Shown: in pieces, positions 2,759 to 40,061 of the stretch
How the letters are laid out: each line of letters begins with the position of its first letter
How positions within the stretch are numbered: the first letter of the stretch is position 1
DNA from: Hydrogenovibrio marinus
GTDB taxonomy: Bacteria > Pseudomonadota > Gammaproteobacteria > Thiomicrospirales > Thiomicrospiraceae
Assembly: GCF_013340845.1 (NCBI RefSeq)
Contig: NZ_AP020335.1
Span: forward strand, 868,001-932,000
DNA: 64,000 nt
Direction: 5' to 3'
Made by a program: the position numbers and the translations under genes
The notes under the pieces: generated by a model
Database searches by the model: none
What the model saw: only the letters and a program-made list of their open reading frames with translations
Told to the model about the DNA's origin: nothing

Positions 2759-3563
2759 GACTCATGTCACCATTGCTTGTATGAAGCCTTTCTAAGTTGT
2801 AATAACGCATATACGCTTTCACATCGTCAATCATATGCTCATGGTTAGGTTGATGTACTTTGAGCAGCCAGTCATGCTTTAAACTGCCAAAGAACCTTTC
2901 AACCACGGCATTATCCCAACACGCGCCAACATCGCCCATTGAGGCTCGGATTTTGAATTGTTTCAGCTGCGCTCTAAATGCGTCACTGGTGTATTGTGAT
3001 CCACGATCACTATGGAAGATCACCCCTTTGGGCGGCTTTCTAAGCCAGTAGGCTTGCTTGAGCGACTCAAGCACGAGTTCGGTGGTCATGCGCGGGCTGA
3101 TTGACCAACCGATAATCCGGCGTGAGTACAAGTCCATCACCACGCTCAGGTATAGCCAACCCTGTGCGGTTTTTAAATAGGTGATATCACCGGCCCACAC
3201 TTGATTCATGCCTGTGGGGTTAAAGTCCATGTTCACAAGGTTATCTGCCACAGCGTGGCTTGGGTCCCGTTTTGTGGTGACTTTGAATGCAACACGCTGT
3301 TCAACCTTTAGGTTTAAGATTTCCATTAACTTGATGACTTTGTGGCGCCCAACCTTAAAGCCTTCTTTACGTAATCGCTTCATCAGTTCTCGTGAACCGA
3401 GACTGTTTCGACTGGCTATAAAAAGGGCTTTAGCTCGCCGATACAGTCGCAGTTGTTCTTCGGTAATAATAGCCTTGGGACGCTTGATCCAATCGTAATA
3501 GCCGGAGCGGCTAAAACTCATCACCTTACAGCTTAATTTAACCGAGTAGCCTTCTTGCGCCAA
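2712..3563 (-). CDS. IS3-family transposase OrfB (DDE integrase)
   Basis: The catalytic part of the transposase. The retroviral-integrase fold shows the DDE triad: Asp in AGDITYL, Asp in HSDRGSQY and Glu in NAVVERFFGSLK, the last two with the spacing usual for IS3 elements. The stand-alone ORF starts at about 3563. The reading frame continues upstream without a stop to the slippery site in orfA, so the working product is probably an OrfAB fusion. The gene looks intact, so the element may still be mobile. Confidence 0.92.
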   Translation of the reverse strand: MAQEGYSVKLSCKVMSFSRSGYYDWIKRPKAIITEEQLRLYRRAKALFIASRNSLGSRELMKRLRKEGFKVGRHKVIKLMEILNLKVEQRVAFKVTTKRDPSHAVADNLVNMDFNPTGMNQVWAGDITYLKTAQGWLYLSVVMDLYSRRIIGWSISPRMTTELVLESLKQAYWLRKPPKGVIFHSDRGSQYTSDAFRAQLKQFKIRASMGDVGACWDNAVVERFFGSLKHDWLLKVHQPNHEHMIDDVKAYMRYYNLERLHTSNGDMSPIEYENYKRDVSEIA

Positions 3564-8919: not shown

Positions 8920-8921
8920 TA

Positions 8922-10007
8922 TTATTTATCTCCTTTCTTTTGAGCCGCTTTTACAGCACTTATCGCTGCATGAGCGACTACTGCTGCACCGACAACACCG
9001 ATGGCGGTTTTACCAATATCGTCTGCCGTTGCTTCAATGCCAAATGCGTTCATCTCTGTATCGCGTGAGTAGAAGGATCCTTTGTCCCAGAACCCATCTT
9101 CAGAACAGCCGATACAGCCATGACCAGATTGAATCGGGAAGGAAGTTCCTCCATTCCAACGGACGGTTGAGCAGGCGTTATAAGTTGTTGGGCCTTTGCA
9201 TCCAACTTTGTATAAACAGTAACCTTTACGAGCACCTTCGTCATCCCACTCTTCTACAAATTGACCGGCATCAAAGTGAGGGCGGCGGTAGCATTTATCA
9301 TGAATACGTTGTGAGTAGAACATTTTAGGACGACCTTGTCGGTCCAGCTCAGGGATGCGATCAAAGGTTAGCATATAGGTAATGACGCCAGTCATGACTT
9401 CAGCAATTGGAGGACACCCAGGCACTTTGATAATCGGTTTGTCATACCCGCCGCCAAGAAATTTATGTACTGGCGTGGCCTGCGTAGGGTTTGGTTTTGC
9501 TGCCTGTACGCATCCCCATGACGCGCAAGAACCCCATGAAATGATAGCTTTTGCATCATCGGCCATGCGTTTTAATTGTTCGGAAAAAGGGCGGCCACCG
9601 ATAATGCAGGACATTCCATCCTGATTAAGCGGAGGGTTCCCTTCTACCGCAAGAATATAGTTTCCTTTATATTTTTCTTTAATTTCATCAAGAATCGCTT
9701 CCGCTGCATGTCCAGAGGCTGCCATGAGGGTGTCGTCATAATCCAGAGAGATCATGGATAACACTACGTCTTTTGCTAGTGGGTGAGCAGAACGAATAAA
9801 GGATTCTGAACAACACGTACATTCCAAACCATGCAACCAGATAACAGGCGTGCGAGGCTTTGTTTCCATCGCATGAGCAATTTTGTTCGCATAAGCAGGA
9901 CTAAGCCCTAATGCAGCCGCAGTAAGGCTACAGTATTTCAAAAAGCTGCGACGCGTAATTCCTTGGCGCCGCATGACTTCATAGAACGTTTCAACTTGAG
10001 ATGACAT
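8922..10007 (-). CDS. hupS: Uptake [NiFe]-hydrogenase small subunit
   Basis: The electron-transfer subunit (361 residues), with a twin-arginine signal (RRSFLK at 19-24), cluster-binding cysteines and a C-terminal membrane helix (about 328-350). Besides the standard proximal-cluster cysteines it has Cys65 and Cys134, at the positions of the two supernumerary cysteines of E. coli HyaA. In that family they form the [4Fe-3S] cluster that lets the enzyme work in air. It is the first gene of the minus-strand operon, reads away from hupD, and sits behind a sigma-54-type element. Confidence 0.97.
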
Positions 10008-10100
10008 AGCAATCCTCGTTTTTATTTTTTAACTTGAAATAGATTAAGTACTAAAAAGGGCGTAAGCCAAAGTGCATGTACTTATGTTCTTGTTGCTCTA

Positions 10101-10116
10101 AGCGCGCCTAGTGCCA
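10101..10116 (-). promoter_or_regulatory. hupS promoter: Sigma-54-type -24/-12 element before hupS
   Basis: TGGCACTAGGCGCGCT on the minus strand carries GG and GC at sigma-54 spacing. The predicted transcript start lies about 80 bases before the hupS ATG. The same sequence is at 1473-1488. The activator gene hoxA, with the GAFTGA loop needed to contact sigma-54, lies in the divergent operon. Confidence 0.75.
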
Positions 10117-10159
10117 AGTTGATAAAAATACATATATTTCAATAGGTAATGGTGATTTT

Positions 10160-10331
10160 TTAAGATTCCATTTCTTGTTTTTTGAAAACAAACTTTTCGT
10201 ATATTTATTTTTTCGAAAACAAAGTTTCCGTTTTTTTTTGAAAGAGCTATAAGTTTTTTGAAATGGCCATAAGTTTTTTTGATTTTTTTAATTGAAGGAA
10301 AAGAGTACTATTTTAAAAAAAACGGAAACTT
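10160..10331. repeat. Direct and inverted repeats in the hupS-hupD spacer
   Basis: The spacer has three sets of repeats. First, two imperfect direct repeats of TTTTTTGAAAACAAACTTTT type (about 10177-10198 and 10210-10230), spaced about 33 bases apart. Second, two ATAAGTTTTTTTGA-type repeats (about 10248-10262 and 10269-10283). Third, a perfect 17-bp inverted pair at 10222-10238 and 10315-10331, the second arm just before hupD. They lie upstream of the sigma-54 element as seen from hupS, where enhancer sites would be expected. The regulator that binds is not shown by the sequence. Confidence 0.6.
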
Positions 10332-10352
10332 AATTATCTATTTGGAATGAAA

Positions 10353-11051
10353 ATGAAAACTTTAGTTTTAGGTATCGGTAATTTACTATGGGCCGATGAA
10401 GGATTTGGTATTCGCTGTATTGAGTATATGGATGCGGAGTATTCTTTTGATGACTCTGTTGAGCTAATGGATGGTGGTACTCAGGGGATATATTTAGCTC
10501 ACCATGTTCAGGAGGCTGATAATCTGATTATTTTTGATGCAATTGATTACGGTATGTATCCAGGAGAAAAGCGTGTTATTCGTAATGATGCTATTCCGAA
10601 TTTTATGGGCTGTAAGAAAATGAGTTTACATCAGACGGGGTTTCAAGAAGTTTTGTCTACAGCAAAGTTAATGGGGAGGTATCCGAGCCAACTTGCATTG
10701 ATTGGTGTTCAACCCCGATTATTAGATGATTTTGGCGGTTCGTTAACGCCTGAGGTTGATGAGCAGATAGTTCCTTGTGTGGAGATTGCGCTGCGCTTTT
10801 TAAAAAAATGGGGAGTGGAATATGAGCATAGAGGTAAGAAGGGAAGTGAAGAAGGTCTTGTTGCAAAGGAATTGAATAAAGCTAAGTATGAAAGTGAGCG
10901 CCCACCGGAATGGATAGCAAGAAGAGTTGGTGATGAAAGAGTGCTGGCTGACAAGAATTACAGTCTGCGTGATACCCCTCTTTATGAGGGAATTAGTAAT
11001 GTTAAGTCTGTTCCTGTAGATGGTCGTAAATTATTTGAAAGGAATGAGTGA
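10353..11051 (+). CDS. hupD: Hydrogenase maturation protease
   Basis: Cleaves the C-terminal 15 residues of HupL. The product has 232 residues and is identical to the left copy. The core of about 155 residues matches HyaD/HybD proteases (LVLGIGN, ADEGFG, DGGTQG, SLHQTG). The remaining C-terminal part is longer than in E. coli HybD and charged. It opens the plus-strand accessory operon, and its TGA overlaps the hupF ATG by one base. Confidence 0.95.
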   Translation: MKTLVLGIGNLLWADEGFGIRCIEYMDAEYSFDDSVELMDGGTQGIYLAHHVQEADNLIIFDAIDYGMYPGEKRVIRNDAIPNFMGCKKMSLHQTGFQEVLSTAKLMGRYPSQLALIGVQPRLLDDFGGSLTPEVDEQIVPCVEIALRFLKKWGVEYEHRGKKGSEEGLVAKELNKAKYESERPPEWIARRVGDERVLADKNYSLRDTPLYEGISNVKSVPVDGRKLFERNE

Positions 11052-11383
11052 TGTGCATAGGTGTTCCCATGGAGATTTTGTCCTGCAATGATTTGATTGC
11101 TCATTGTTGCAATGAAGAAGAAGGACGAGAGCAGGAGGTGGACATGTCGCTGGTCGGCAATCAGTTGATGGGTACTTGGGTGTTGGTGTTTCAGGGGGTA
11201 GCAAGAGAGGTGATTGAAACAGATGTTTTGGATCAAGTTCTACGAGCAAGAAGAGCGATGGCTGCTGCACTCGAAGGTGGGGATGTGGATGTCTTCTTTG
11301 CTGATTTGATTAACAGGGAGCCCGAGTTACCAGATTTCTTAAAAGATGAAGCAGGAGAAAAAAATGTCAAGAACATTAATTAA
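11051..11383 (+). CDS. hupF: HypC-family chaperone dedicated to HupL
   Basis: A 110-residue member of the HypC/HupF family. It starts MCIGVPM, and Cys2, exposed after removal of Met, is the residue by which the family binds the hydrogenase precursor and iron. I reject the in-frame GTG just upstream because the cysteine must be residue 2. In other bacteria HupF protects the large subunit under oxygen. The 3' end overlaps the start of hupG. A second family member, hypC, lies at 17391. Confidence 0.94.
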   Translation: MCIGVPMEILSCNDLIAHCCNEEEGREQEVDMSLVGNQLMGTWVLVFQGVAREVIETDVLDQVLRARRAMAAALEGGDVDVFFADLINREPELPDFLKDEAGEKNVKNIN

Positions 11384-11774
11384 TAAAATTATCGAAGATC
11401 AGGCGTTGGTGCGTTTGAACTTGGAGAATTACCGCGACTTTGTCGACTCAAAACCGGTTAGTATGGTTGCCTTCATTGGTGATCCAAAACGTTACCAAGA
11501 AGCAAATGATTTAATCGTTGTTGTTCCAGAGTTGGCCAAGGCATTTTGTGGTGTTTTTTCTGTTGGAGTAGTTGATGAAGAAAGTGAAAGTAGGTTAGCA
11601 CAAGAATATGGAATTACGATGTGGCCGGCTTTGGTTTTCTTAAAGAGCGGAAGATATGTTGACATGATAACTAGAATTCAGGATTGGTCTGATTATATGG
11701 AAGATATTCCGAAAATTTTGGATAAGTCGCCAACGTTTGCACCTTCAATTGGTATTGGTATAGAGGTTAAATGA
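11364..11774 (+). CDS. hupG: HupG/HyaE thioredoxin-like chaperone for HupS
   Basis: 136 residues with a thioredoxin fold but no CxxC active site (the MWPALVF strand aligns with the thioredoxin WCGPC region and beyond). HyaE/HupG proteins bind the small-subunit precursor and its Tat signal. The start at 11364 follows GGAG by 7 bases, inside the end of hupF. The upstream ATG at 11346 has no good ribosome binding site. Confidence 0.9.
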   Translation: MSRTLINKIIEDQALVRLNLENYRDFVDSKPVSMVAFIGDPKRYQEANDLIVVVPELAKAFCGVFSVGVVDEESESRLAQEYGITMWPALVFLKSGRYVDMITRIQDWSDYMEDIPKILDKSPTFAPSIGIGIEVK

Positions 11775-11775
11775 G

Positions 11776-12645
11776 ATGTCAGATTATAGAGAGTTAAGCA
11801 TTCCGGTATCTGTTGTCGGTCCGGGGAGTCAGCCAGATAGCGAAGATGGCATGGTTCTGGATTATATGCCGATGCCAAATGATATGAGCGTGTTTCATGC
11901 GCCAGTGATAATGGATGATAGTTTGCATAATTATCCTCAGGCTGAAAAAGTGATTGAAGAAGTCATAGTTTCTCTAAAGAACGTTGCAGAAACAGGTGAG
12001 CAAGTGTTGCTAGATCTGGGAAGTTTGACGAGAGAAAATCTTGATTTTATTAACCGATTTTTTGGAGAAGGAGAGGTTTGCATAATTTGTAATCCTCGAT
12101 CTGACGAGTATAGGATTCAGGAAACCGTTCTAGCTGGTGTTTGGCGTATAGCTGGTAGACATGCGGGCCAACCATTTCAAGCAATTGAAATTGGTTGGGT
12201 GCCTGAAATTGTTTCAAAATATACATTTGAGGATGCGGAAAGCTCTATAAGTCTCCCAGATACTCTTCCGGAAGGTATTATCAATGCCCCATCTTTGCTA
12301 GCAGAATTGAATGAGAAATCTAAAGAATACTCTCTTGGAGATGCTGCTCATGTTGTCAATCTAACCCTTTTGCCACAATCACCAGAAGATTTAGAGTTTT
12401 TGGTGAGCGCTCTAGGTGAGGGGCCAGTTGTTTTCTTGAGTCGAGGTTATGGAAGTTGTCGAGTCACTTCGACTAGATTGAAGAATGTTTGGTGGGTTCA
12501 GTATTTCAATTCTGAAGACAAGTTGATCCTGAATACGCTTGAAGTCATTGATGTACCAATTGTTACACAAGCCTCTCTGGATGATATAGAAGACGGTTAC
12601 GATCGAATTGTTGAAATGTTGGAGTCAGTCCGTGTCACGCAATAG
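11776..12645 (+). CDS. hupH: Hydrogenase expression/maturation protein HupH
   Basis: 289 residues of the HupH/HyaF family. The N-terminal part is variable. The C-terminal half carries the family pattern RGYGSCRVTSTRLKNVWWVQYF and NTLEVIDVPIVTQA, typical of HyaF/HupH. In rhizobia the protein helps small-subunit maturation. It starts 2 bases after hupG ends and its end overlaps hupI. Confidence 0.93.
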   Translation: MSDYRELSIPVSVVGPGSQPDSEDGMVLDYMPMPNDMSVFHAPVIMDDSLHNYPQAEKVIEEVIVSLKNVAETGEQVLLDLGSLTRENLDFINRFFGEGEVCIICNPRSDEYRIQETVLAGVWRIAGRHAGQPFQAIEIGWVPEIVSKYTFEDAESSISLPDTLPEGIINAPSLLAELNEKSKEYSLGDAAHVVNLTLLPQSPEDLEFLVSALGEGPVVFLSRGYGSCRVTSTRLKNVWWVQYFNSEDKLILNTLEVIDVPIVTQASLDDIEDGYDRIVEMLESVRVTQ

Positions 12646-12871
12646 CGAGAAAGGGTTTGAAGGTTCCTATTTGGGAGATAATTCTCAGATTGATGAGAAT
12701 ACCAAAATGGAGTGCAAAATTTGTTGGTATGTTTATGATCCGGCAATCGGTGATGACTTCTGGCAAGTTCTACCAGGAACAGCGTTTGCGCATTTGCCTT
12801 CCGAATGGCGCTGCCCTAATTGCGACGGTGATAAAGAACAATTTATGGTTATTACTAATGAGAGTTCTTAA
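12632..12871 (+). CDS. hupI: Rubredoxin-like protein HupI
   Basis: A 79-residue rubredoxin with CKIC and CPNC iron ligands. It has the N-terminal FEGSYLGD stretch typical of HupI. The family is thought to protect or carry electrons during HupS cluster assembly in air. I start at the GTG at 12632, which follows GGAG by 8 bases inside the end of hupH. The ATG at 12708 would remove the FEGSYLGD part. Confidence 0.92.
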   Translation: MSRNSEKGFEGSYLGDNSQIDENTKMECKICWYVYDPAIGDDFWQVLPGTAFAHLPSEWRCPNCDGDKEQFMVITNESS

Positions 12872-13521
12872 TGGTTAAAGCTCAAAACCAGGCAAAAACT
12901 GTCCCTCAAACAATTCACACGGCATCTACAAATACCTTTGACGTAAAACAATGGGTGAAAAACGTTGAATGCTATTTTGAGAAGGTGTATCAGGTAAGTA
13001 TGAAAGATCTTCCGATTGTGAACCGGAATTTGGCAGTCCGTGTTGTTAACGTTAAAGAAATTCGTGCCAATACGTTTATTGGGTCTATAGTGTCGCCTTG
13101 GTTTGTTAATCTGATTTTTAAGGTTGTTGATGAACAAGGGGTGGATTGTCATCATCAATTGTATGGGGTTGGGGTAGGAGAGAGCCTTCATCTCAAGTTT
13201 CCTTCTGGGAAATACGAATTTATTGTTAATTATGAGGCAGATATTGGTTATTTTTATACCTGTTCTTTGGTTTCTGATACCACAGTGATTGAAAATCAGG
13301 AGGTTGCTTTATCTTTAGCCGATCATTGTTTTAGGCTTGTGTTTGACTCTGCCGCTAAGGAGTTAGATTTGTTTAAGCCACAAACAGAGAAAGATAAGCA
13401 AGGTATTCGGAAGGTTGGACGTAATGTTAAACCTATTGGCGAAAATAAGCCTTCTGCAATTTCTCGACGTAAGTTGTTTGGTTTGAATACATCGCTTGAC
13501 GATGCAAAAGATAGTCCCTAA
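12871..13521 (+). CDS. hupJ: HupJ/HybE hydrogenase assembly chaperone
   Basis: 216 residues. The middle part matches HybE/HupJ: LPIVNRNLAVRVV, SIVSPWFVNLIF, then FPSGKYEF and YFYTCSL. HybE-type proteins bind the small-subunit precursor. The protein is longer than most relatives: about 50 polar residues follow the domain and include ISRRKLFG. Its ATG shares a base with the stop of hupI and its stop overlaps the start of hupK, so translation is coupled. Confidence 0.88.
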   Translation: MVKAQNQAKTVPQTIHTASTNTFDVKQWVKNVECYFEKVYQVSMKDLPIVNRNLAVRVVNVKEIRANTFIGSIVSPWFVNLIFKVVDEQGVDCHHQLYGVGVGESLHLKFPSGKYEFIVNYEADIGYFYTCSLVSDTTVIENQEVALSLADHCFRLVFDSAAKELDLFKPQTEKDKQGIRKVGRNVKPIGENKPSAISRRKLFGLNTSLDDAKDSP

Positions 13522-14570
13522 TGCAGGGTTCAGTTGATATCCAGAAAGTACCCTTAAGTGTAAGGTCGAGGCGGCCTTTCCGTTTGCAGGAAATGTGTGT
13601 AGATAAGAAGCCGCAGTTAGTAATTCAATTTGTCGGCCTGGCTTACCAATTATGCGGCCAAGCACAGACTTTTGCTTCGAAACTGGCATTATTGCCTTTG
13701 GAATCTCTGCCTTTAGTGGATCTGCAAGAGGCGGTAACTATTGAAATTCTGAGGGAGCATTATTTAACGCTGGTGCAATTACTGAGTCAATTGCAACTGT
13801 GCAATGCTGTCGAAGCTGGTCACCTATTGCAAGGTGTTGGACAATGGAAGAATAAGTTTGAAAATGGAGTTTTGTTAATTGATCCGATTGCTGATTCTTA
13901 CAAGCAATTAGGTTTAGACCTGAGTAGACTTTCTTGTGCGATGGTGATGCCAGGCTCTTTGGCTGAAAAAATGATGGAATTTTTACTGACGATGGAAGAG
14001 AGCTCTGGTTCTCGTGAGACCTTGGAGTTGCCTTCTGGTTTGCATTGTTCACTGAATAATGAGGGGCGTAACGGGTTGATTGATATTGAATGTTGTGATT
14101 GGAAACGTTGGGTCGAATTTCCGGTTAATCATGGAAAGGTTTATGAAAATAGTGTCCTTTCGAGGGTTGAGATTCATAGTGAATGGGAGAATTTCAGAAC
14201 TGGTTTGCCATTGGTTGACCGAGTTCGTGCCAAGTGGTTGGATTCTGCCGTATTTTGGCAATCTCTCGGTAGTGATAAAAAAGAATGTAACCCGCCTGTT
14301 TTTGGTGTAAATCAATCTGGAACTATCTGTCAGAGTTGGGTTGAGACTGCCCGAGGGCGTCTTTACCACTTGGCACATGTAGAGTCGGATAGAGTAATGG
14401 ATTATGCAATTTGTGCACCGACAGAATGGAATTTTCATCCTGAAGGAGTAGCTAAAAAGTTATTGAAAGGACTTTCAAATCAGGTCTCCGACAGTGTGCG
14501 TTGGGCAGAGTGTGCATCCTTGTACGCTCAAGTGATAGATCCCTGCGTTCCGGTTAGATTCGTTGTGTAA
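13521..14570 (+). CDS. hupK: HupK, large-subunit-like assembly scaffold
   Basis: 349 residues. The C-terminal part resembles HupL: ETARGRLYHLAHVE, then CAPTEWNFHPEG and a final VIDPC, with only one of the two terminal nickel cysteines. HupK proteins serve as scaffolds for making the Fe(CN)2CO group with HypC and HypD. A TAATG overlap joins it to hupJ. Sequence divergence is high, as usual for the family, but operon position and C-terminal motifs agree. Confidence 0.88.
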   Translation: MQGSVDIQKVPLSVRSRRPFRLQEMCVDKKPQLVIQFVGLAYQLCGQAQTFASKLALLPLESLPLVDLQEAVTIEILREHYLTLVQLLSQLQLCNAVEAGHLLQGVGQWKNKFENGVLLIDPIADSYKQLGLDLSRLSCAMVMPGSLAEKMMEFLLTMEESSGSRETLELPSGLHCSLNNEGRNGLIDIECCDWKRWVEFPVNHGKVYENSVLSRVEIHSEWENFRTGLPLVDRVRAKWLDSAVFWQSLGSDKKECNPPVFGVNQSGTICQSWVETARGRLYHLAHVESDRVMDYAICAPTEWNFHPEGVAKKLLKGLSNQVSDSVRWAECASLYAQVIDPCVPVRFVV

Positions 14571-14601: not shown

Positions 14602-14943
14602 GTGCATGAGATGTCTATTTGCGAAGGCGTTGTTCTTTCTTTGGAAAGCGAAGCGCAGAAACAGAATTTTCAGAAAGTAAAAAAAGTTTGGCTTACAGTG
14701 GGAATATTTTCCGGCGTTGAAATCGATGCACTTCGTTTTGGTTGGGATGTTGTGACTCGTAATTCGATCGCCGATGGTGCCGAATTGGTTGTGCTCGAAG
14801 AGCAGGGGCAGGCTTGGTGTATGGGATGTTCCAAGCATGTTCAGATAGAAAACCGTTATGATGATTGTCCTGCCTGCGGTAGCCACCGACTGCAAGTTAC
14901 CGGCGGGGAAATACTGAGTATTAAAGAGATAGAGGTAGAGTAA
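14602..14943 (+). CDS. hypA: Nickel-insertion protein HypA
   Basis: 113 residues. MHEMSI gives the nickel ligand His2, and CMGC with CPAC forms the zinc site. It acts with HypB to load nickel into the hydrogenase large subunit. It starts at a GTG 31 bases after hupK, behind a GGGGG stretch. The ATG three codons later would remove His2. Confidence 0.96.
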
Positions 14944-14945
14944 AT

Positions 14946-15836
14946 ATGTGTACAGTTTGCGGCTGCGGAGAAGGTGAAGTCTCCATTGAGGGCGCCCACG
15001 CCCATGCTCATAGTCATGATCACGGCGATAACCAGGAACATCAGCATGGTGAAAATGGCGATCTGCATTACGGACAGGGGCCGGCGCATGCTCACGCTCC
15101 AGGGATGACTCAGAGCAGAATGATCGAGATTGAACAGAATATTTTGTCGAAAAACGACGAATATGCTCACGAGAACCGACATACTTTCGGACATAAAGGG
15201 TTGTTTGTTTTAAACCTGGTTTCTAGTCCAGGATCAGGTAAGACGACTTTGTTGACACAAACCGTCGAACATTTGAAGAATAAATTACCAGTCGCCGTGA
15301 TTGAAGGCGATCAGCAAACAGCTAACGATGCCGACCGAATTAGAGCTACAGGAGTGCCTGCGATTCAGGTCAATACCGGAAAAGGCTGTCACTTGGACGC
15401 CCATATGGTTGGGCATGCAGTTTCTCACCTTGATGTAGAAGATTACGGTGTCCTGTTTATCGAAAATGTCGGCAATCTGGTTTGCCCATCGGCATTTGAC
15501 CTTGGAGAAGATCATAAAGTGGCGATTCTTTCGGTGACTGAAGGGGAGGATAAGCCGATCAAATATCCGGATATGTTTGCGGCTGCAGATTTGATGGTAC
15601 TCAATAAGGTCGATTTACTGCCTTATTTGGAGTTTGATGTTGATGCCTGCATCAAGTACGCGCAAAGAGTAAACCCGAATATTGAAGTACTGTTGGTTTC
15701 GGCGAAAAGTGGGGAAGGAATGTCTGAGTGGCTGAACTGGCTAGTCACACGCCGAAACAACAAGCTCAGTCAGTTTGTCGAACGCATGCAGTCTCAGGTT
15801 AAAGCGGTCGAGTCTGCACTGGATGTCAGCCTATGA
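14946..15836 (+). CDS. hypB: Nickel-insertion GTPase HypB
   Basis: 296 residues. The N-terminus has the nickel motif CTVCGCG, then a histidine-rich stretch (residues 17-52) that can store nickel, then the P-loop SSPGSGKTT and the rest of the SIMIBI-type GTPase ([21 protein letters not shown]). It starts 2 bases after hypA and overlaps hoxA by 4 bases. Confidence 0.97.
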
Positions 15837-17314
15837 TTTTGGAAAAGCCAAGTGTTCTAGTTGTTGATGACGACGAAAAATCAGTCGCCACTTTGAAGCG
15901 GACCTTGCGTAAGGATTTTAAGGTTTATACCGCCTTGTCGGCCGAAGAGGCCGAAGAAATCCTGCGTTTTGAATATATTCAGGTTCTGGTGTGTGACCAT
16001 CGAATGCCGAAAGAGACTGGAGTGTCGTTTTTAATCCGAGTCAAAGAGCAATGGCCGGATGTCATTCGAGTATTGCTTTCTGGCTATTCCAGTCTGGAAG
16101 ACACTATTCGTGGTGTGAATGAAGCTGGCATTTATCAATATATAGAAAAGCCGTGGCAGCCGGAGCAGTTGATCCATACTTTAATGAATGCGGTAGAACT
16201 GTTCGAGCTACAGCGTGAAAACCGTCTGCTGTCGGTGGAGTTGAAAGTTGCACCGAGTGCGCTTGAAAAAGAAGTCAAGCAGAAGAAAGAACAGTTAAAG
16301 AAAACCTATGATTGTGACGAAATCGTACGTACGCCAGATGGTTTGCTAGATAAGGTAATTCAACGGGTGTGTCAGATTTCTTCGTTCGATTTTCCGGTTC
16401 TGATTGCCGGTGAATCCGGGACGGGAAAAGAGCTGTTTGCCAGAGCGATTCACTATAACTCAGCGCGATCGGATGGCCCTTTTTTGGCTGAAAACTGTGG
16501 AGCTTTGCCGGATCAGCTGTTAGAGAGCGAATTATTCGGCTATAAAAAAGGCGCGTTTACCGGAGCCTATATGGATCACGTCGGTCTGTTAGAGCAGGTC
16601 AGTGGTGGGACTCTGTTTCTGGACGAGATCGGTGAAATTTCCCAGTCGTTTCAGGTCAAGTTGTTGAGAGTGCTACAGGAAGGCGAAATTCGTCCGCTGG
16701 GACACTCCAAACCACGAAAGGTTGATGTTCGTATTGTGGCAGCGACTAACCGTAATCTGGAAGAAGAAGTCAAAGCCGGTCGTTTCCGTGAGGATTTGTT
16801 TTATCGCCTAGTCGGTTATGTCGTTCAACTGCCTTCTCTGCATGAACGTACAGAAGATATTCCGTTGCTAGCAAATGCCTTCTTGAAGCATCTTTGCGAG
16901 CAATATGCCCGCCCGTTCAGTGGTTTTACCGATGAAATGATGCAATGCTTGATGGATTATCGTTGGCCGGGCAACATTCGTGAATTGCAGAACGAGATTG
17001 GACGCAGCTTTATGATGACGCCGCAGGGTGAACCTTTGCGTGCGGAGTTCTGTTCGTCGCGTGTTTTGCGCGCCGCTCCGGAAGATATGGAAATGGAATT
17101 GGAGTGGGTGTCCGGCGTCAACGGTTCTCTGAAAGAAAAAGTGGCGCAGATCGAAGAGCAGATCATTCGCGAGGCATTGATCCGCTTGCGTTGGAACAAA
17201 ACCAAAGTGGCAGAGGAGCTTGGTTTATCCCGCGTTGGGTTACGTCAAAAAATGGAACGCTTCAGTATTACCGAAAACCTTGGTAGTGGAGTGAACAGTG
17301 AAAAGGTCGGATAA
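15833..17314 (+). CDS. hoxA: NtrC-family response regulator controlling hydrogenase genes
   Basis: 493 residues: receiver domain (Asp55 in CDHRMP), AAA+ domain with P-loop GESGTGKE and the sigma-54 contact loop GAFTGA, and a Fis-type helix-turn-helix at the end ([20 protein letters not shown]). HoxA/HupR proteins of this context activate hup operons and are unusual in being active without phosphate in Ralstonia and Rhodobacter. The kinase hupT and the sensor hupUV are encoded at 32309-36116. The likely target is the sigma-54 element before hupS. Confidence 0.95.
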
Positions 17315-17390
17315 ACATCAATGAAGATGTCATTCGATCGGACAGTCAGAACCCGTAAATAGCAAACAGAAGAAGGGTGGAGGAGTTGAG

Positions 17391-17711
17391 ATGTGTTTAG
17401 GAATTCCCGGACAAGTGATTGAAATAACAGATGCGGAACGTCAGTTAGCGATGGTTGAAGTTTCCGGTGTCAGGCGAGAAGTGAATGTTGCCTGTGTGGT
17501 CGAACCCGGTTCACCGGTAGACAGTTGTATTGGATACTGGGTTCTGGTTCATGTCGGATTCGCCATGAGCCGGATTGACGAGGAAGAGGCGGGCAAAACG
17601 CTGGCGATTCTCAAAGAGCTTGGCGAAGTTGACGAAGAATTGGATGCTATGAAAGAGAGTGAGCAGTCTCTTCGTCAGACGCCTCCGGAGGAGAAAAGTC
17701 ATGCAGGATAA
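17391..17711 (+). CDS. hypC: Hydrogenase maturation chaperone HypC
   Basis: 106 residues starting MCLGIPG with the essential Cys2. It binds HypD during synthesis of the Fe(CN)2CO group and passes it to the large subunit. The C-terminal 35 residues are acidic and longer than in E. coli HypC. A GGAGGAG site precedes the ATG. The end overlaps the SIS-domain gene by 11 bases. Confidence 0.96.
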   Translation: MCLGIPGQVIEITDAERQLAMVEVSGVRREVNVACVVEPGSPVDSCIGYWVLVHVGFAMSRIDEEEAGKTLAILKELGEVDEELDAMKESEQSLRQTPPEEKSHAG

Positions 17712-18426
17712 ATCAACCAACAGCATCCTCAGCGGATTTTATCCCTTTGCCGGGGATAAAGTGTCAGTGCCGACTGAGACTTCTGACGAAAGGGACTCGG
17801 CGCCTTTTGGCCTCTCCGACGAAACACTTATCGCTTCGGTCCAACAGAAAGTCCAAGAGAGTGTTCAGGTTAAACTTGCCTACTTTAAATCGCAGGAAAG
17901 CAAACTGTTGATGGCCGCCAAATGCATTGCCGATGTTTACCGGCATGGCAGCAAAATGTTCTCAATGGGGAATGGTGGGTCCAGTTGCGATGCCTCGCAT
18001 CTTGCCGTGGAATTTCTGCATCCGGTCACGGCAGGCAGGCCGGCGCTTCCGGCTATCAACTTGGGAGCGGATTCAACCATGATTACTGCTGCAAGCAACG
18101 ATCTGGGATTTAACAATGCCTTTGTCAGACAATTAATTGCACAGGCAAGAAGCGGTGATGTTCTTGTTGGATTTTCCACCAGTGGCTGTTCCGAAAACTT
18201 AATGCAGGCCTTTGCTAAAGCGAAAGAGCTGAAACTGCATACCATTGGTTTTGCCGGAATGGATGGTGGTGATATGGCAAAAAGTACGGATGTGGATATT
18301 TGCTTGATCGTCGAAAGTATGAGCATCCACCGAATTCAGGAAAGCCATCTGACGACATACCACATTTTATGGGATATGGTTCATTCGCTTCTGGCCGATG
18401 ACCGCAAAAAACAGGTTGGGAAATAA
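17701..18426 (+). CDS. SIS-domain, phosphoheptose-isomerase-like protein in the hyp operon
   Basis: 241 residues. After a polar N-terminus the protein has the GmhA-type SIS fold with the sugar-phosphate motifs SMGNGGSSCDASH and GFSTSGCSEN, and a final ESHLTTYHILWDMVHSLL. GmhA makes heptose phosphate for lipopolysaccharide, but this gene overlaps hypC and ends 1 base before hypD, so a part in hydrogenase maturation is plausible. The start at 17701 follows GGAGGAG. The earlier frame start at 17659 has no such site. Confidence 0.88.
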   Translation: MQDKSTNSILSGFYPFAGDKVSVPTETSDERDSAPFGLSDETLIASVQQKVQESVQVKLAYFKSQESKLLMAAKCIADVYRHGSKMFSMGNGGSSCDASHLAVEFLHPVTAGRPALPAINLGADSTMITAASNDLGFNNAFVRQLIAQARSGDVLVGFSTSGCSENLMQAFAKAKELKLHTIGFAGMDGGDMAKSTDVDICLIVESMSIHRIQESHLTTYHILWDMVHSLLADDRKKQVGK

Positions 18427-18427
18427 G

Positions 18428-19567
18428 ATGAAATATGTCGATGAATTCCGTAATGGCAAGCAGGCGATGGCGATCGCCAAAAAAATCGCCGAACAGGTTA
18501 AGACACTGAATGTTTCCAAGCAGCGCCCGTTACAATTTATGGAAGTGTGTGGAGGCCATACGCACTCGATCTTCCGTTACGGTCTGGCACAATTTTTACC
18601 CGAAGAAATCGAATTTATTCACGGGCCAGGCTGTCCTGTGTGTGTGTTGCCGATGGGAGTTGTTGACGATTGCATTTCTATTGCCGAGCGGCCAGACGTG
18701 ATTTTCACGACCTTCGGTGATGCTATGCGGGTGCCTGGTTCAAAAAAAAGTCTGCTACAGGCAAAAGCTGAAGGACACGATGTCAGAATGGTATATTCGC
18801 CGCTGGATGCCCTGCAGATTGCGAAACAGAATCCGGAGCGTGAAGTGGTCTTCTTTGGTTTAGGGTTTGAAACCACTATGCCAAGCACCGCTTTGACGCT
18901 TCAGCAGGCAGCACAAGAGCATGTAAAAAATTTCTCCTTGTTCTGTAATCATATTACTATTATTCCGACGATTAAGGCGATGCTAGATTCACCTGATATG
19001 CGTTTGGATGGTTTTTTGGGACCAGGACACGTCAGTATGGTGATAGGCTCTCAGCCTTATGAATTTATTTCCAGAGATTACAACAGACCATTGGTAATTG
19101 CAGGATTTGAACCGTTAGACATTCTTCAGTCTGTTTATATGCTAGTTAAACAGCTCGTTGACGGTCGTTGCGAAGTAGAAAATCAGTATGAACGCATCGT
19201 TCCGAAAACGGGGAATCAAGTCGCTTTGCACTCGATTGGGGATGTGTTCGAACTTCGAGAGTTTTTTGAATGGCGTGGTATGGGATCGATTGACCACTCC
19301 GGGGTGCGCATACGTGAGAAATATGCTGATTTTGACGCCGAACGTAAGTTCGCCATGCCGAGACTGAAAATTGCCGATCCGGATGCAGCGCAATGCGGTG
19401 AAGTCGTTACAGGAGTTATCAAGCCGGAACAGTGCAAGTTGTTCGGTAAATCATGTACACCACAAACCCCCATCGGTGCATTGATGGTTTCGACCGAAGG
19501 CGCCTGTGCAGCCCATTACCATTACGGACAAATTGAAATTCCTATTTCCCAGGTTGTAAATCGATGA
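18428..19567 (+). CDS. hypD: Hydrogenase maturation iron-sulfur protein HypD
   Basis: 379 residues. HypD is the scaffold on which HypC and HypE build Fe(CN)2CO. Motifs MEVCGGHTH, GPGCPVCVLP, FFGLGFETTMPST and the C-terminal cluster cysteines are all present. The ATG at 18428 follows GGGA by 7 bases. It overlaps hypE by 4 bases. Confidence 0.97.
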   Translation: MKYVDEFRNGKQAMAIAKKIAEQVKTLNVSKQRPLQFMEVCGGHTHSIFRYGLAQFLPEEIEFIHGPGCPVCVLPMGVVDDCISIAERPDVIFTTFGDAMRVPGSKKSLLQAKAEGHDVRMVYSPLDALQIAKQNPEREVVFFGLGFETTMPSTALTLQQAAQEHVKNFSLFCNHITIIPTIKAMLDSPDMRLDGFLGPGHVSMVIGSQPYEFISRDYNRPLVIAGFEPLDILQSVYMLVKQLVDGRCEVENQYERIVPKTGNQVALHSIGDVFELREFFEWRGMGSIDHSGVRIREKYADFDAERKFAMPRLKIADPDAAQCGEVVTGVIKPEQCKLFGKSCTPQTPIGALMVSTEGACAAHYHYGQIEIPISQVVNR

Positions 19568-20619
19568 AAGTTATAGAAACCCTTAAACAGCAGTTAGTCG
19601 AAAGCTTTGGTGATCAGGTGATTACTTTGGCTCACGGTAGTGGTGGTAAAGCCATGCAACAGTTAATTGATCAGGTGATTCTGCCGTTTTTCGGTAAGCC
19701 ATCAGATTCACCGCTGGAAGATCAGGCCAGACTGCCGCTTCCGCAAAGCGGCCGTCTTTGTATGACCACGGATTCGTATGTGGTGACGCCGATTCGCTTT
19801 CCCGGTAGCAGTATCGGGCATCTGGCCATCAACGGAACAGTGAACGATCTAGCCGTATCCGGCGCCCAGCCACTGTATTTGAGCTGTGGTCTGATCATCG
19901 AAGAAGGTTTGGCGTTTGCGGAGCTGATTGAGATTTTAGCGGACATGGCCGTTGCGGCTCAAGTAGCCGATGTACGGATTGTAACTGGTGATACCAAAGT
20001 TGTGGATAGAGGTAGCTGTGACAAGCTGTTTATCAATACTGCCGGAATCGGTGTACTTGAAGTCGGACTTGACTCAGGGATCACTCATATTAAGATCGGG
20101 GACAAGATTCTGATTAACGGTGACATCGGAGATCACGGCGTAGCCATTCTAGCCGCACGGGGAGAGTTGGCATTAGAAACAACTATTACATCTGATTGTG
20201 CAGCTTTGACTAGCTTAATTCAATTATTGCTTTCGGAAGGCATTCCGATACATGCGATGAGGGATGTGACCCGCGGTGGCCTGGCAACGGTGTTGAACGA
20301 ATATGCTCAGGGAGCCGGAGTTGGCATTCTTATTGACGAAGGGCAAATTCCGATTAAACCGGAAGTTCGCGGTGTGTGTGAAGTGCTTGGTTTGGACCCT
20401 TTATATCTCGCTAACGAGGGCAAGGTCGCACTGGTTATTCCAGCCGATTCTGCTGAACAGGCGTTGCAATTGATGCGTACTCATCCGGCAGGCATGAATT
20501 CGGCGATGGTTGCCGAAGTGGTTGCCGATCACCGAGAACGGGTGGTTATGCAGTCTGATTTCGGAGGCAAGCGAGTGGTCGATATGTTGGTCGGTGAGCA
20601 GCTTCCGAGAATCTGTTAA
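19564..20619 (+). CDS. hypE: Carbamoyl dehydratase HypE
   Basis: 351 residues. It turns the carbamoyl group on its C-terminal cysteine into thiocyanate, the source of the cyanide ligands. The sequence ends in PRIC, as in all working HypE proteins, and has the AIR-synthase-like motifs HGSGGKAM, TTDSYVVTP and RDVTRGGLATVLNE. Confidence 0.97.
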   Translation: MKVIETLKQQLVESFGDQVITLAHGSGGKAMQQLIDQVILPFFGKPSDSPLEDQARLPLPQSGRLCMTTDSYVVTPIRFPGSSIGHLAINGTVNDLAVSGAQPLYLSCGLIIEEGLAFAELIEILADMAVAAQVADVRIVTGDTKVVDRGSCDKLFINTAGIGVLEVGLDSGITHIKIGDKILINGDIGDHGVAILAARGELALETTITSDCAALTSLIQLLLSEGIPIHAMRDVTRGGLATVLNEYAQGAGVGILIDEGQIPIKPEVRGVCEVLGLDPLYLANEGKVALVIPADSAEQALQLMRTHPAGMNSAMVAEVVADHRERVVMQSDFGGKRVVDMLVGEQLPRIC

Positions 20620-20686: not shown

Positions 20687-21349
20687 ATGGAATTCGGTTT
20701 ATTGGTTATTTTTTATTATGGCATTTTGCACGCATTTGGCCCTGATCACCTGATGGCGATAGCTGATTTTTCGATTGGGCAAAACCGACGAAAAACACTT
20801 TTTTATACGATTGGGTTTGCAGTTGCCCATGGCTTAACTTTATTTGTGTTTGCAAAAATTCTTCAACATATACATATTCCTGCAGAGATTCTTGCTTATG
20901 GTGATGCGATTGCTTCGTCAGTGCTTATAGGGGTTGGTGCGTATCTGCTGTTTCTGGTTTTTAGCAGACGTATTCAACTGCATCAGCACCAGCATAATGG
21001 GGTGACCCATACGCATATCTGGTTTGGGCGCACTCATTCTCATAATGTTTCAGGACGGCGTGTTGAACAAAAAACGCGATTAACTTCGGTTGTTACGCTG
21101 GGTACCTTGATGGGAATTGGGGGCATTAGAGGAATGTTAATAACATTGGCAGCGATTTCAGGACACTCCGTCTCTTTATTGATGGTAGCGAGCTTCTCAC
21201 TGGGAGTTATGTCTATATTTCTGCTTTTTGGAGTGTTGATTGCGTTTGTAAATGAAAATTTGTTGACCACCAAACGCAATATTAACGCAGCGTTTTCTGT
21301 TGCTGGATTGGGTTCAATTCTGGTTGGTAGTCATGCATTGTTTTTTTAA
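20687..21349 (+). CDS. Probable nickel permease
   Basis: A 220-residue membrane protein with about six helices. The first helix has HAFGPDHLMA, an Hx4DH motif as used for nickel or cobalt selection in NiCoT and related NicO/UreH carriers. A histidine-rich loop (HQHQHNGVTHTHIW and THSH) follows the third helix. It is the last clear gene of the hup/hyp operon and probably brings nickel for the enzyme. I cannot assign a precise family name. Confidence 0.78.
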   Translation: MEFGLLVIFYYGILHAFGPDHLMAIADFSIGQNRRKTLFYTIGFAVAHGLTLFVFAKILQHIHIPAEILAYGDAIASSVLIGVGAYLLFLVFSRRIQLHQHQHNGVTHTHIWFGRTHSHNVSGRRVEQKTRLTSVVTLGTLMGIGGIRGMLITLAAISGHSVSLLMVASFSLGVMSIFLLFGVLIAFVNENLLTTKRNINAAFSVAGLGSILVGSHALFF

Positions 21350-34746: not shown

Positions 34747-34748
34747 GC

Positions 34749-36116: not shown

Positions 36117-36125
36117 GGACTTATC

Positions 36126-38567
36126 CTAACACAGATTTACTCTGCGCGCAGCGAGCGCACACAGTTGTCCCACCGCAATCGATTGGTCGTTTGCCGGAAG
36201 TTTCCGATGGGTTAATAATGTGATTTCCGGCGGTGCCATTTGCCTGAAAAGCCAGATCAACCAACCGTTTTGGCAAACGCCGCCGCTTAGAACAATATAT
36301 TGGAAAGAAAACTTCTCTCTCAGCTGTTCGGCACTCTTAAGTAAGGTTTTGACCAAACAGATATGGAAGCGAGCTGAAACTTGTCCAACGGATAAATGGT
36401 TGTTTAGGTCTTTCAGTATCTGAGGAATAATGGAAGCGGTGTCCAGTAACTGTCGGTTGCTTTGTGGGTTAGTTTCAGTTTGCATGAAATAGGCATTTTC
36501 CCATTCCTTCAGCAGTAATTCTTCATTTAGCAGGCCTTCCAAACGCATGGCGGCTTCACCTTCGTAACTCATACTGTCAAAACAGAGGTCGCAAACGGCT
36601 GCGACCGCGTCGAACAGACGACCTGCCGACGAAGAAAGAGGACTGTTGAGCCCGGATTTTGACATGGAATCCAATAAATCGGTCGGTTTAGTCTGCAGTT
36701 GCCGCAGACTCTTCACTTGCGGATAGCGCTGGATCAGGTTTTCCAAAGAGTCTTGAGTGCGAACGAGCGCATACAGATTCCTCCAGGGTTCTTTATTTGC
36801 TTTGTCTCCGCCTAGTAGAGGACGGGGAGCGAGGTTGCCCAGACGAATGAAATGATCGTAGGTTCCGTAAAGAATTTCTCCGCCCCAAAATGTACCGTCT
36901 TCTCCGAATCCCAATCCGTCCAGAATAATTCCTAAAACTGGCGGAGAACCCAGTGGAATAGCGTTCTCAAACAGGCAGGCGTTCAGGTGGGCATGATGAT
37001 GCTGAATTTCAGTTAGAGTCGCTGCCGGAGCATGTTTTTCCCTGTAGCGGAGGATCTCTTCTTTAACATAATACCCAGGATGTTTGTCGGTGATAATGTG
37101 CTCAGGTTTGAGTTGGTAAAGTTGTTGTAAATCCTGCAATGCCTCGCCGTAAGCTGTTTGGATATCGAAATTTTCCATGTCGCCGAGAAAATGCAAAAGA
37201 GTGATTTCGTTGCCTTTCTGAAAGGCGATGCTGTTTTTCAAATCGCCTCCTGATGCTAGGGTATTTAATGAAGGAAAGCCTTCCGGCATCGTGAAGCGCA
37301 ACGGGGCAAAACCGCGTGATTGGCGCAGGGCTTCGCAGTCATTTCCCTCGACCGAAGTTTTCATTACCGAATCTTCAAGACGGCGGATGATAGGGCGGTT
37401 GTGGGTCAACACTGCATCGGCGAGCTGCATAAGTTCGGCTTCCTTATCATCTCGGTAGATCTGCGGATACCCGCTCAAATTAGCGGAGGTAAAAACCAGG
37501 AGTCTGTTGGGACAGGTCTTCGCCCATGTTGACATCAACATACTGTGTAAGGGGGTATTCGGAAGCATAATTCCCAAGCGTGACTGGTTCGGGGCAACCA
37601 GTTCCGATAGTTCGGAGGGAGGTAATTTTCCCAGTTTCGGCAAAAGGACAATCGGGGCTTGCGTCGAATTCAGTTTTTTTTCGGCCGCTTTGCTGACCTT
37701 TGCATAGCGTTTAACAATATCCATATCCGAAGCCATTAACGCAAAAGGTTTTTGAGGGCGAGATTTTCTTTGTCGAAGTGTTCGGCAAGCGGAGTCGTTG
37801 CCAGCATCACAGACCAGATGAAAACCTCCCAGCCCCTTGATTGCAAGGATCAGTCCTTTTGCCAGATAGTGGCAGACCTGTTCGATCATACGCCAGTTAT
37901 CCGGTTGCGATAGACCGTTTTCCTGCGTATGTGATGTTTCCGAACTTGGAAGGAATTGCGTTAATCTCAGCTGAGGGCCGCAGGCAGGACATGCATTCGG
38001 TTGGGCATGGAAGCGCCGATCAGACGGGTCTTGATATTCCCTTTGGCAGACGGGACACATATTAAAACCGGCCATGCTTGTATATTCGCGATCGTACGGC
38101 ATCGATCGGATAATCGAGTAACGGGGGCCGCAGTGAGTACAGTTGGTGAAGGGGTAGCCATAACGACGGTTTTCGGGGTCAAAAACGTCCCGCAGGCAGG
38201 CGGAGCAGGTGGTGGCATCGGCCAAAACGGCAGTTTGCATAAGTCCGGGACGGCTTTTTTGGATCGTAAAGCCGCAGCAATCTTTCAGTTCGGTAAGTTC
38301 TCTGTGTGTGGCGTTCGGATCGATCCATTCCCAGAGTACCTGATCAACCTGAGCGAGAGCAGGAGCTTGTCCTCTGAGTGCTTCAACAAATTGCTTCTCG
38401 GCTTCGGGGTTGTTTTCACTGTTAATTTTGAGAAATATTTTCACACCAGAAGCGTTGTTCAGAACCCAGCCGCTATAGCCGAACTGTCTTGCAAGCTGCC
38501 AAACAAATGGACGAAATCCAACACCCTGAACAGCTCCAAAGACGGTAATTTGCGCATAGGCGTTCAT
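36126..38567 (-). CDS. hypF: Carbamoyltransferase HypF
   Basis: 813 residues. It makes the carbamoyl group that HypE turns into cyanide. The domains in order are acylphosphatase (GAVQGVGFRPFVW), two zinc fingers (CSAC...CTHC and CPVC...CPAC), a YrdC-like domain, and a Kae1-like domain (HHHAHLNACL, LDGLGFGEDG, SGGVCQN). The ATG at 38567 follows AGGA by 9 bases. The frame start at 38615 lies inside the upstream gene and is rejected. Confidence 0.96.
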   Translation of the reverse strand: MNAYAQITVFGAVQGVGFRPFVWQLARQFGYSGWVLNNASGVKIFLKINSENNPEAEKQFVEALRGQAPALAQVDQVLWEWIDPNATHRELTELKDCCGFTIQKSRPGLMQTAVLADATTCSACLRDVFDPENRRYGYPFTNCTHCGPRYSIIRSMPYDREYTSMAGFNMCPVCQREYQDPSDRRFHAQPNACPACGPQLRLTQFLPSSETSHTQENGLSQPDNWRMIEQVCHYLAKGLILAIKGLGGFHLVCDAGNDSACRTLRQRKSRPQKPFALMASDMDIVKRYAKVSKAAEKKLNSTQAPIVLLPKLGKLPPSELSELVAPNQSRLGIMLPNTPLHSMLMSTWAKTCPNRLLVFTSANLSGYPQIYRDDKEAELMQLADAVLTHNRPIIRRLEDSVMKTSVEGNDCEALRQSRGFAPLRFTMPEGFPSLNTLASGGDLKNSIAFQKGNEITLLHFLGDMENFDIQTAYGEALQDLQQLYQLKPEHIITDKHPGYYVKEEILRYREKHAPAATLTEIQHHHAHLNACLFENAIPLGSPPVLGIILDGLGFGEDGTFWGGEILYGTYDHFIRLGNLAPRPLLGGDKANKEPWRNLYALVRTQDSLENLIQRYPQVKSLRQLQTKPTDLLDSMSKSGLNSPLSSSAGRLFDAVAAVCDLCFDSMSYEGEAAMRLEGLLNEELLLKEWENAYFMQTETNPQSNRQLLDTASIIPQILKDLNNHLSVGQVSARFHICLVKTLLKSAEQLREKFSFQYIVLSGGVCQNGWLIWLFRQMAPPEITLLTHRKLPANDQSIAVGQLCALAARRVNLC

Positions 38568-38586
38568 TGGTTCATGTCCTGCTGCG

Positions 38587-39198
38587 TTATTGCTTAGTAT
38601 TTTGCATGGATTCAATCATGTCTTTCACCGCTTGAGCTTTTTCGTCCTGCTTCAAATGCTCCGGAAGCTTTTCAATCAGTTGTAGCGCGGCCGGAATGTT
38701 GTTTATTTGAACCAGAATTGCCAGCTCAACTAATAAGGCTTCGTCATCATGCGGGTACTTTTGCCGAAAGACTTCGACCAGTTCCACTGCCATATCGAAT
38801 TGTTCAGAGCTTAATAGAAGTTCGACCTGTTGTTGTAGTAAGTTGAGGCGATTTTGTGCTTCACTTAAAACATGGGGTTCGATTAGCAATTCAAACTGTT
38901 GCTTGTTTAGAAGGCCTGTAGCTTGGGCAACGATTTGTTGTTGGTGGAAAATTTTAATATTCGGAATAGACTCGACTTTGCAGAGATCTAGTATCGGTTC
39001 AATTTCTTTATCTTCAATATCAAGCAGAGCTATGTGCAAGCGATCTTCATACTGGGGTGCAAGTTCAGCTAGCATTTTTAGCACGGCATCGCAAGGTTCA
39101 CAGCCAGTAGCTGTAAAAAATACAGCTACTGGAGTGTGCAGTGAACTAGTCAAAACAGCTATATCGAAGTCTTTTACAGGTATTTTTTTCAGGCCCAT
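38587..39198 (-). CDS. Thioredoxin/TPR protein heading the hypF-hupTUV operon
   Basis: 203 residues. A thioredoxin domain with the CxxC site TGCEPC (residues about 32-37) and the SIPNIKIF cis-proline strand is followed from about residue 110 by helical repeats like those of YbbN-type co-chaperones. The gene leads the minus-strand operon with hypF 19 bases behind. A role in folding or redox care of hydrogenase subunits is plausible but inferred. Unlike HupG it keeps both active cysteines. Confidence 0.8.
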   Translation of the reverse strand: MGLKKIPVKDFDIAVLTSSLHTPVAVFFTATGCEPCDAVLKMLAELAPQYEDRLHIALLDIEDKEIEPILDLCKVESIPNIKIFHQQQIVAQATGLLNKQQFELLIEPHVLSEAQNRLNLLQQQVELLLSSEQFDMAVELVEVFRQKYPHDDEALLVELAILVQINNIPAALQLIEKLPEHLKQDEKAQAVKDMIESMQNTKQ

Positions 39199-39264
39199 TG
39201 TCTTTATTATCCTAAAAAGCAGTTAAAATTAATTATTATAAAATTATAAATAGGATGACTTAAT

Positions 39265-39894: not shown

Positions 39895-39931
39895 ATAGTA
39901 GGCCTTGATGAGTTTGCAACCATCAAAGTAA

Positions 39932-40008: not shown

Positions 40009-40061
40009 TCTTTCGAACCTTGTAACTGCACCTAATTAGAAGATAATTAAATGCGGAAAAT

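Follow-up and report, generated by a model that had tools for sequence, protein, structure and literature searches.

A sugar isomerase (SIS) gene that encodes a 241-aa protein of the GmhA fold is located between hypC and hypD (17701..18426, + strand) in the window, the whole stretch of 64,000 nucleotides of Hydrogenovibrio marinus DNA analysed in this work. The assignment was based on Pfam, PDB and fold matches, on the neighbouring genes and on the homologues. Judging from sequence comparison, the product belongs to a GmhA-derived subfamily (hyp-SIS) that is apart from heptose GmhA and is kept by hypC and hypD. From its conservation, we have high confidence that it is an accessory component that one HypC-HypD lineage has conserved. 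It is probably a dedicated accessory factor of one HypC-HypD-HypE lineage that works beside HypC and HypD, and we have moderate confidence that it acts at the HypCD stage. Conservation supports a putative role in maturation.

The SIS gene is part of an operon with the order hupD-hupF-hupG-hupH-rubredoxin-hybE-hupK-hypA-hypB-response regulator-hypC-SIS-hypD-hypE-NicO-like, all on the + strand. The accessory genes hupD, hupF (HypC-like), hupG, hupH, rubredoxin, hybE and hupK (10347..14570) were assigned by their families, where hupG, rubredoxin and hupK were named by gene order and similarity to hoxO, rubredoxin and hoxV of Cupriavidus necator. The genes hypA (14602-14943) and hypB (14946-15836) were assigned by profile matches. 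The gene of a HoxA/HupR-type sigma-54 response regulator (15833..17314) matches that of the C. necator regulator after hypX at 49%. It is followed by hypC (17391..17711; PF01455 and TIGR00074), the SIS gene, hypD (18428..19567; PF01924 and TIGR00075, placed by tree in the SIS-linked HypD clade), hypE (19564..20619; TIGR02124) and the gene of a NicO/HupE-like putative nickel transporter (20687..21349; PF03824 at 19.8 bits, under the cut-off of 27.7). The hydrogenase genes hupS (8922-10007) and hupL (7084-8919) are divergent from the operon, on the - strand, and show 86% and 73% identity, respectively, to the first C. necator pHG1 hydrogenase set. A CTCC motif is present in HupS, on the strength of which we take the window hydrogenase to be O2-tolerant; the hydrogenase group names used here (for example MBH-type for the window enzyme, and Huc-type) are also our assumption. 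No HypX match at E 1e-50 was found in the H. marinus genome.

The hypF gene (36126..38615, - strand) is away from the hyp operon and lies beside genes of a hydrogenase-like large subunit (32309-33757), a hydrogenase-like small subunit (33754-34752) and a PAS histidine kinase (34749-36116). These genes are grouped within 32309-41147 with those of a thioredoxin-TPR protein and a folD-type gene (40251-41147), and a folD-type gene near hyp genes is interesting for C1 supply. A 2703-bp stretch that contains hupS, hupD and parts of hupL and hupF occurs twice at 100% identity (1-2703 and 8629-11331). Its first copy reaches the left edge of the window and adjoins an integrase-core transposase gene (2712-3563). 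The repeat is either a recent duplication or an assembly artefact.

The position of the SIS gene between hypC and hypD, as described in the earlier note, was confirmed. Its start lies inside the 3' end of hypC with an 11-nt overlap, and GGAGG is present upstream of its ATG. A possible hypD ATG at 18428 leaves a 1-nt gap after the SIS stop codon; an alternative in-frame hypD ATG is located further upstream, at 18398. The scan of 17250-18700 gave no terminator-like site and no promoter-like site on the + strand. The closest named relative in the genome-collection scan (4 loci) is Thiomicrorhabdus heinhorstiae with 90% identity. The pairwise dN/dS (NG86) of the SIS gene against T. heinhorstiae L003 is 0.088, which indicates purifying selection.

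The SIS protein contains the Pfam domains SIS_2 (1.4e-19) and SIS (4.6e-7). The 15 PDB sequences that match it consist of 13 phosphoheptose isomerases and two DiaA proteins. Its AlphaFold2 model, for which the input was a 5-sequence alignment, is of moderate quality with a low-confidence N-terminus. At this quality (mean pLDDT 69), the GmhA-type SIS fold is predicted, and the best fold match to the model is E. coli phosphoheptose isomerase 2i2w (E 3.2e-16).

The zinc ligands of Burkholderia pseudomallei GmhA are H64, E68, Q175 and H183, according to passages of PMC5705639. The aligned residues H100, E104, Q213 and H221 are present in 30/30 hyp-SIS rows, which include close relatives, and in 62/62 GmhA rows. 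The codons C96-H107 (17986..18021, + strand) specify the helix with C96, H100, E104 and H107, while the codons Q213-H221 (18337..18363, + strand) specify the other two aligned ligands, which correspond to Q175 and H183 of GmhA. The phosphate-loop residues of GmhA are also intact in the hyp-SIS rows. Other residues distinguish the subfamily, where H107, P108, H210, Y220, W224 and H228 are each found in 30/30 hyp-SIS rows versus 0/62 GmhA rows, and C96 in 29/30 versus 0/62. The residues Y14, P15 and F16, each found in 28/30 hyp-SIS rows, belong to an N-terminal motif (codons 13-16; 17737..17748, + strand) that reads FYPF in the window and LYPF in most relatives; [LF]YPF is found in 0/62 GmhA rows. 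These residues predict, with high confidence, an enzyme-like metal site in hyp-SIS, whose chemistry may be altered by the extra histidines.

The H. marinus genome carries a second SIS gene, the product of which is 36% identical to the window SIS protein. This gene adjoins hldE, which scores 702 bits where the cut-off is 521. The window gene was rejected as the heptose gmhA of this genome because the other gmhA sits by hldE and the window copy is in hyp context; the window gene has no heptose-pathway neighbours, nor is it the sole gmhA of the genome. A survey of relatives gave a second GmhA-like match (E 1e-20) in four of the five SIS genomes, and the fifth genome is 85% complete. In the SIS tree (56 rows), the GmhA rows (21 of 62 were used) form one side of a branch with 100/100 support, so that hyp-SIS does not group with housekeeping GmhA; a long-branch warning applies to 4/5 split-SIS rows and one GmhA row of this tree. 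The earlier note had considered that the window gene might replace gmhA, which is disfavoured by the other gmhA beside hldE and by the separate subfamily. The NCBIfam scores of the window protein are under the cut-offs (152.1 against 209.45 for TIGR00441 and 145.1 against 276 for PRK13936). However, the hldE-linked gmhA also misses both (169.8 and 175.9), and these cut-offs were therefore dropped as an argument since they do not discriminate. DiaA identity was rejected, as the window protein scores 94.6 where the DiaA model cut-off is 352, and its DiaA score is also lower than its scores with the GmhA models.

The taxonomic distribution of hyp-SIS was determined from three surveys that overlap, where the genome of the window is in all of them and genome G030 is in two. 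The class survey (369 genomes) identified the subfamily in 15 genomes, and the order hypC-SIS-hypD is found in 15/15. The scores are bimodal: none of these 15 genomes is below 298 bits, and the next match is at 174 bits. The 10 lower-scoring loci among the matches listed in this survey have no hyp gene within the approximately 3.5 kb fetched. The relatives survey (37 genomes), which has two of its five SIS genomes in common with the class survey, identified five genomes with a protein at least 59% identical to the window protein, and hypD is directly behind it in 5/5. The phylum survey (269 genomes) identified two further hyp-linked copies, each of them flanked by hypC and hypD; among the matches listed outside the class, which are mostly from one family, only these two are of the SIS subfamily. 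The 26 lower-scoring loci of the phylum survey have no hyp neighbour. For the 10 and 26 GmhA loci, the absence of hyp neighbours refers to approximately 1.5 kb on each side, and several of these loci are cut by contig ends.

The order hypC-SIS-hypD is also found on alpha- and betaproteobacterial plasmids. Six of the eight plasmid regions exhibit this order (Cupriavidus, Afipia, Bradyrhizobium, Mesorhizobium, Sphingopyxis and Novosphingobium). The Methylocystis region exhibits SIS-hypD with no hypC found there, and the Mycobacterium region exhibits a split SIS form. On pHG1 of C. necator H16, the SIS gene (H16_RS31885) is in the second hyp set, which is presumably an actinobacterial-type hydrogenase operon. 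In the plasmid HypD search (best 60 of 122 matches), all 16 records at least 70% identical to the window HypD have a SIS annotation under the match, where these records include seven near-identical Bradyrhizobium plasmids and pairs from the same strain or close kin. The next record in the same best 60 of 122, at 63% identity, is without SIS annotation. A chance neighbour was rejected because the gene occupies the hypC-hypD position in all 15 subfamily genomes of the class survey. The count suggested in the earlier note, of how often this SIS type sits in hyp operons, thus gave 15/15 subfamily genomes of the 369 at the hypC-hypD position, and together with the eight plasmid regions this is the conservation inside hyp operons expected of a Hyp accessory factor.

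The HypD tree was constructed from 72 loci, of which 61 were kept after those with no HypD hit, a HypD under 300 aa or an identical protein had been dropped. All 30 SIS-labelled HypD proteins are in one clade of 33 rows (99/98). The other three rows of this clade are from Thermus and Sulfobacillus (both with split SIS) and from the SIS-less locus L047. The label 'none' of the Thermus and Sulfobacillus rows arises since the split SIS is outside the 1500-nt/42% rule. Locus L047 (L047:642-1995) has hypC-hypD without SIS and a very long HypD branch inside the SIS-linked clade; it is among the rows with a long-branch warning and is possibly a case of SIS loss. The 12 hypX-labelled HypD proteins are in another clade of 17 rows (98/97), in which the five others have neither gene; the hypX labels cover class-survey genomes, and rows from elsewhere (e.g. 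L043, L044 and L049) are unscored for HypX.

The class survey (369 genomes) identified HypX in 20 genomes, SIS in 15 and HypD in 143. Most of the 143 HypD genomes carry neither SIS nor HypX, and therefore neither is generally needed. The HypX gene is at most 2.1 kb from hypD by coordinates in 18/20 genomes, and in the other two it is on another contig. SIS and HypX were found together in 0/369 genomes. This overlap of zero compares with 2.1 expected among the 143 HypD genomes (P(0)=0.092) and with 3.2 expected among 84 genomes with high-scoring HypD (P=0.018), where the threshold for the 84 had been chosen once the score gap had been seen. The exclusion between SIS and hypX is weak and tracks the two HypD lineages, and it therefore does not represent many independent events.

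Both SIS and hypX are carried by at least two C. necator records and at least seven Bradyrhizobium plasmids among the matches listed (40 of 68 and 40 of 42), and hypX might therefore serve both sets there. The two genes are approximately 54 kb apart in the C. necator records and 87-88 kb apart in the Bradyrhizobium plasmids. In the two C. necator regions that were opened, SIS and hypX are in separate hyp sets. The window HypC, HypD and HypE are 59%, 70% and 55% identical to those of the SIS-bearing C. necator set versus 40%, 51% and 47% for the hypX-bearing set. The MBH-type hydrogenase goes with hypC-SIS-hypD-hypE in the window and with hypC-D-E-X in C. necator. The window HupSL resembles the first C. 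necator set and the window HypCDE resembles the SIS set, so one kind of hydrogenase fits either cassette. These comparisons suggest that SIS may be a functional replacement of hypX, in a pattern that also reflects two inherited lineages.

Split and fused forms of SIS were identified in other hyp operons. The plasmid hyp operon of Mycobacterium intracellulare, adjoined by RuBisCO and CbbX genes, encodes a 236-aa protein whose C-terminal part is of HypC type (PF01455, 1.3e-11) and whose N-terminal part is a degenerate SIS half. This half matches the window SIS protein at 38% over 65 aa (E 7e-9) and the Thermus SIS half at 37.5% over 160 aa (E 9e-22), with both E-values holding for a 12-sequence comparison only. 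A second SIS protein is encoded directly after the fusion. Three plasmid records matched the fusion, one of them over the whole length, so the fusion rests on one mycobacterial plasmid. In Thermus thermophilus SG0.5JP17-16 the two SIS halves are joined in one 392-aa protein, whose gene is flanked by hypE on one side and by a glutaredoxin-like gene on the other; hypD is preceded there by the gene of a small HypC-type protein that is 37% identical to the mycobacterial tail. The Sulfobacillus layout is similar, but its second SIS half does not form a single open frame in the deposited sequence. The three half-A rows retain H100, E104, H107, P108, H221 and W224 and have lost the phosphate-loop residues. 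In the two half-B rows these loop residues and Q213 are retained, and H100 and E104 have been lost. A composite site may be formed between the two halves.

A second small HypC-type protein with extra cysteines ahead of its HypC-like part (L112:6480-6707, L113:6422-6655 and L052:9129-9839) stands alone in Thermus and Sulfobacillus, and in Mycobacterium it is joined to SIS half A. The cysteine stretch reads C-T-L-D-x-D-G-C-x-T-C in Thermus and Sulfobacillus. Both also have a glutaredoxin-like gene between the split SIS gene and hypF (L112:10046-10306 and L113:10048-10275).

The earlier note had offered a CO-ligand precursor, a regulator or a passenger as options for the SIS gene. Its link to maturation gained support from conservation, whereas the passenger and the replacement gmhA are disfavoured; a passenger is unlikely given the separate subfamily, its retention with HypD across nearly the whole clade and the SIS-related half fused to a HypC-type domain. 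The SIS protein would be a metal-dependent enzyme that acts next to the HypC-HypD scaffold, with a phosphorylated, sugar-like compound as its substrate. This step would take place during Fe(CN)2CO assembly, chiefly for uptake hydrogenases of aerobes.

A tentative and rather doubtful form of this proposal is that SIS, as the CO-ligand enzyme or as an essential partner of that enzyme, supplies or prepares the CO ligand in the HypX-less HypCD lineage, a task performed by HypX in the hypC-D-E-X lineage. The GmhA-derived metal site would then take a carbonyl unit of one carbon from a phosphorylated ketose or polyol and release it or hand it over directly at HypC, which would cover the second C. necator pHG1 set, the mycobacterial and Thermus sets and the MBH-type enzyme of the window. 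The support is circumstantial, namely the absence of overlap with hypX and hypC-SIS-D-E replacing hypC-D-E-X. To our knowledge, known GmhA chemistry makes no CO. This proposal is rated lower because one expression study favours anaerobic growth. In line with a role in maturation, GmhA is among the hup-operon maturation proteins in the proteome of H2-grown Acidithiobacillus ferrooxidans, matched here by name alone. Passages of that study report GmhA and other Hup maturation proteins at higher levels when growth on H2 was anaerobic than when it was aerobic, so that a SIS role limited to air is not favoured (PMC7735108). Evidence against the accessory-factor proposal also comes from the SIS-less locus L047 and from the Huc-type operon 4 of Parageobacillus thermoglucosidasius, for which a passage of PMC12976888 lists no SIS gene beside hypC, hypD, hypE, a glutathione-S-transferase-N gene and hypF.

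We consider it improbable that SIS is a regulator or sensor that catalyses no maturation step and instead adjusts HypCD activity to the carbon status by binding a sugar phosphate. Phosphosugar sensing is common among SIS domains, and the conserved phosphate-loop residues and the RuBisCO and CbbX genes by the M. intracellulare hyp cluster are consistent with such a role. However, the four zinc-ligand columns kept in 30/30 rows are needless for a pure sensor, and split half A retains metal ligands without phosphate loops. We also give little credence to metal handling, in which the SIS scaffold would hold or deliver Fe for HypC through the GmhA metal site and H107, H210 and H228. The invariant extra histidines and C96 (29/30) are close in sequence to the metal ligands, and it is half A, with the metal ligands, that is joined to a HypC-type domain containing Cys; yet the intact phosphate-binding loops suggest a phosphorylated ligand, and for E. 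coli iron supply through Isc has been argued (PMC10847431). A spare gmhA trapped in the operon, as a second heptose isomerase or passenger, shares the GmhA fold and the conserved catalytic residues but is highly implausible against the other gmhA by hldE, the second GmhA-like match in 4/5 SIS genomes of the relatives survey, the separate 100/100 branch of the GmhA rows, the single position in 15/15, the dN/dS of 0.088 and the SIS half fused to a HypC-type domain.

The association of SIS with hyp genes is already published as table or list entries, without explanation. A [NiFe]-hydrogenase neighbourhood table (PMC12727194, in part) has the SIS domain as cluster 37, which comprises 68 genes, GmhA is listed with the Hup maturation proteins of A. 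ferrooxidans (PMC7735108), and a predicted GmhA-HypD-HypE link is given without explanation for Clostridium acetobutylicum in a passage of PMC3231954. Among the open-access papers listed, no function for the hyp-linked SIS gene was found in the titles, abstract starts and passages covered. The main text of PMC10017518 does not mention isomerase, SIS, hypC or maturation, and the passages of PMC13098282, PMC7248562 and PMC11018855 are silent on the hyp-linked SIS gene.

The SIS gene is relevant to the question of the CO-ligand source without HypX. The origin of the CO ligand in anaerobic microorganisms is named as the most pressing question in a passage of a 2025 review (PMC12134894). If true, CO supply by SIS would be a third Fe-CO ligand route beside HypX and the anaerobic route. 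The SIS gene by HypC and HypD, including that of the second C. necator pHG1 set and the mycobacterial hydrogenase operon, is a concrete genetic target. The SIS-bearing and hypX-bearing sets are on one C. necator H16 plasmid, so a single laboratory strain allows SIS, hypX or both to be removed.

The known systems closest to hyp-SIS are compared here. GmhA, the D-sedoheptulose 7-phosphate isomerase (EC 5.3.1.28; B. pseudomallei 2x3y/2xbl and E. coli 2i2w), is approximately 35% identical to the window SIS protein in the fold alignment. Both GmhA and hyp-SIS have the same fold, four zinc ligands and phosphate-loop residues, whereas hyp-SIS has its own branch, its subfamily residues, the N-terminal LYPF and the hyp context. 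DiaA also has the GmhA-like SIS fold in common with the window protein. In C. necator, HypX uses formyl-tetrahydrofolate to produce the CO ligand, according to passages of PMC12134894, and like SIS it is a single gene added to a hypC-D-E set. However, HypX consists of formyltransferase and enoyl-CoA hydratase domains whereas the window protein has SIS domains only, HypX goes with another HypD clade than SIS, and no surveyed genome has both. HupK/HoxV and HupF/HoxL are non-core helpers in the maturation of O2-tolerant hydrogenases; unlike SIS, HoxL/HupF are relatives of HypC and HoxV/HupK are relatives of the large subunit (PMC12134894, in passages). Likely counterparts of both HupK/HoxV and HupF/HoxL are present in the window beside the SIS gene.
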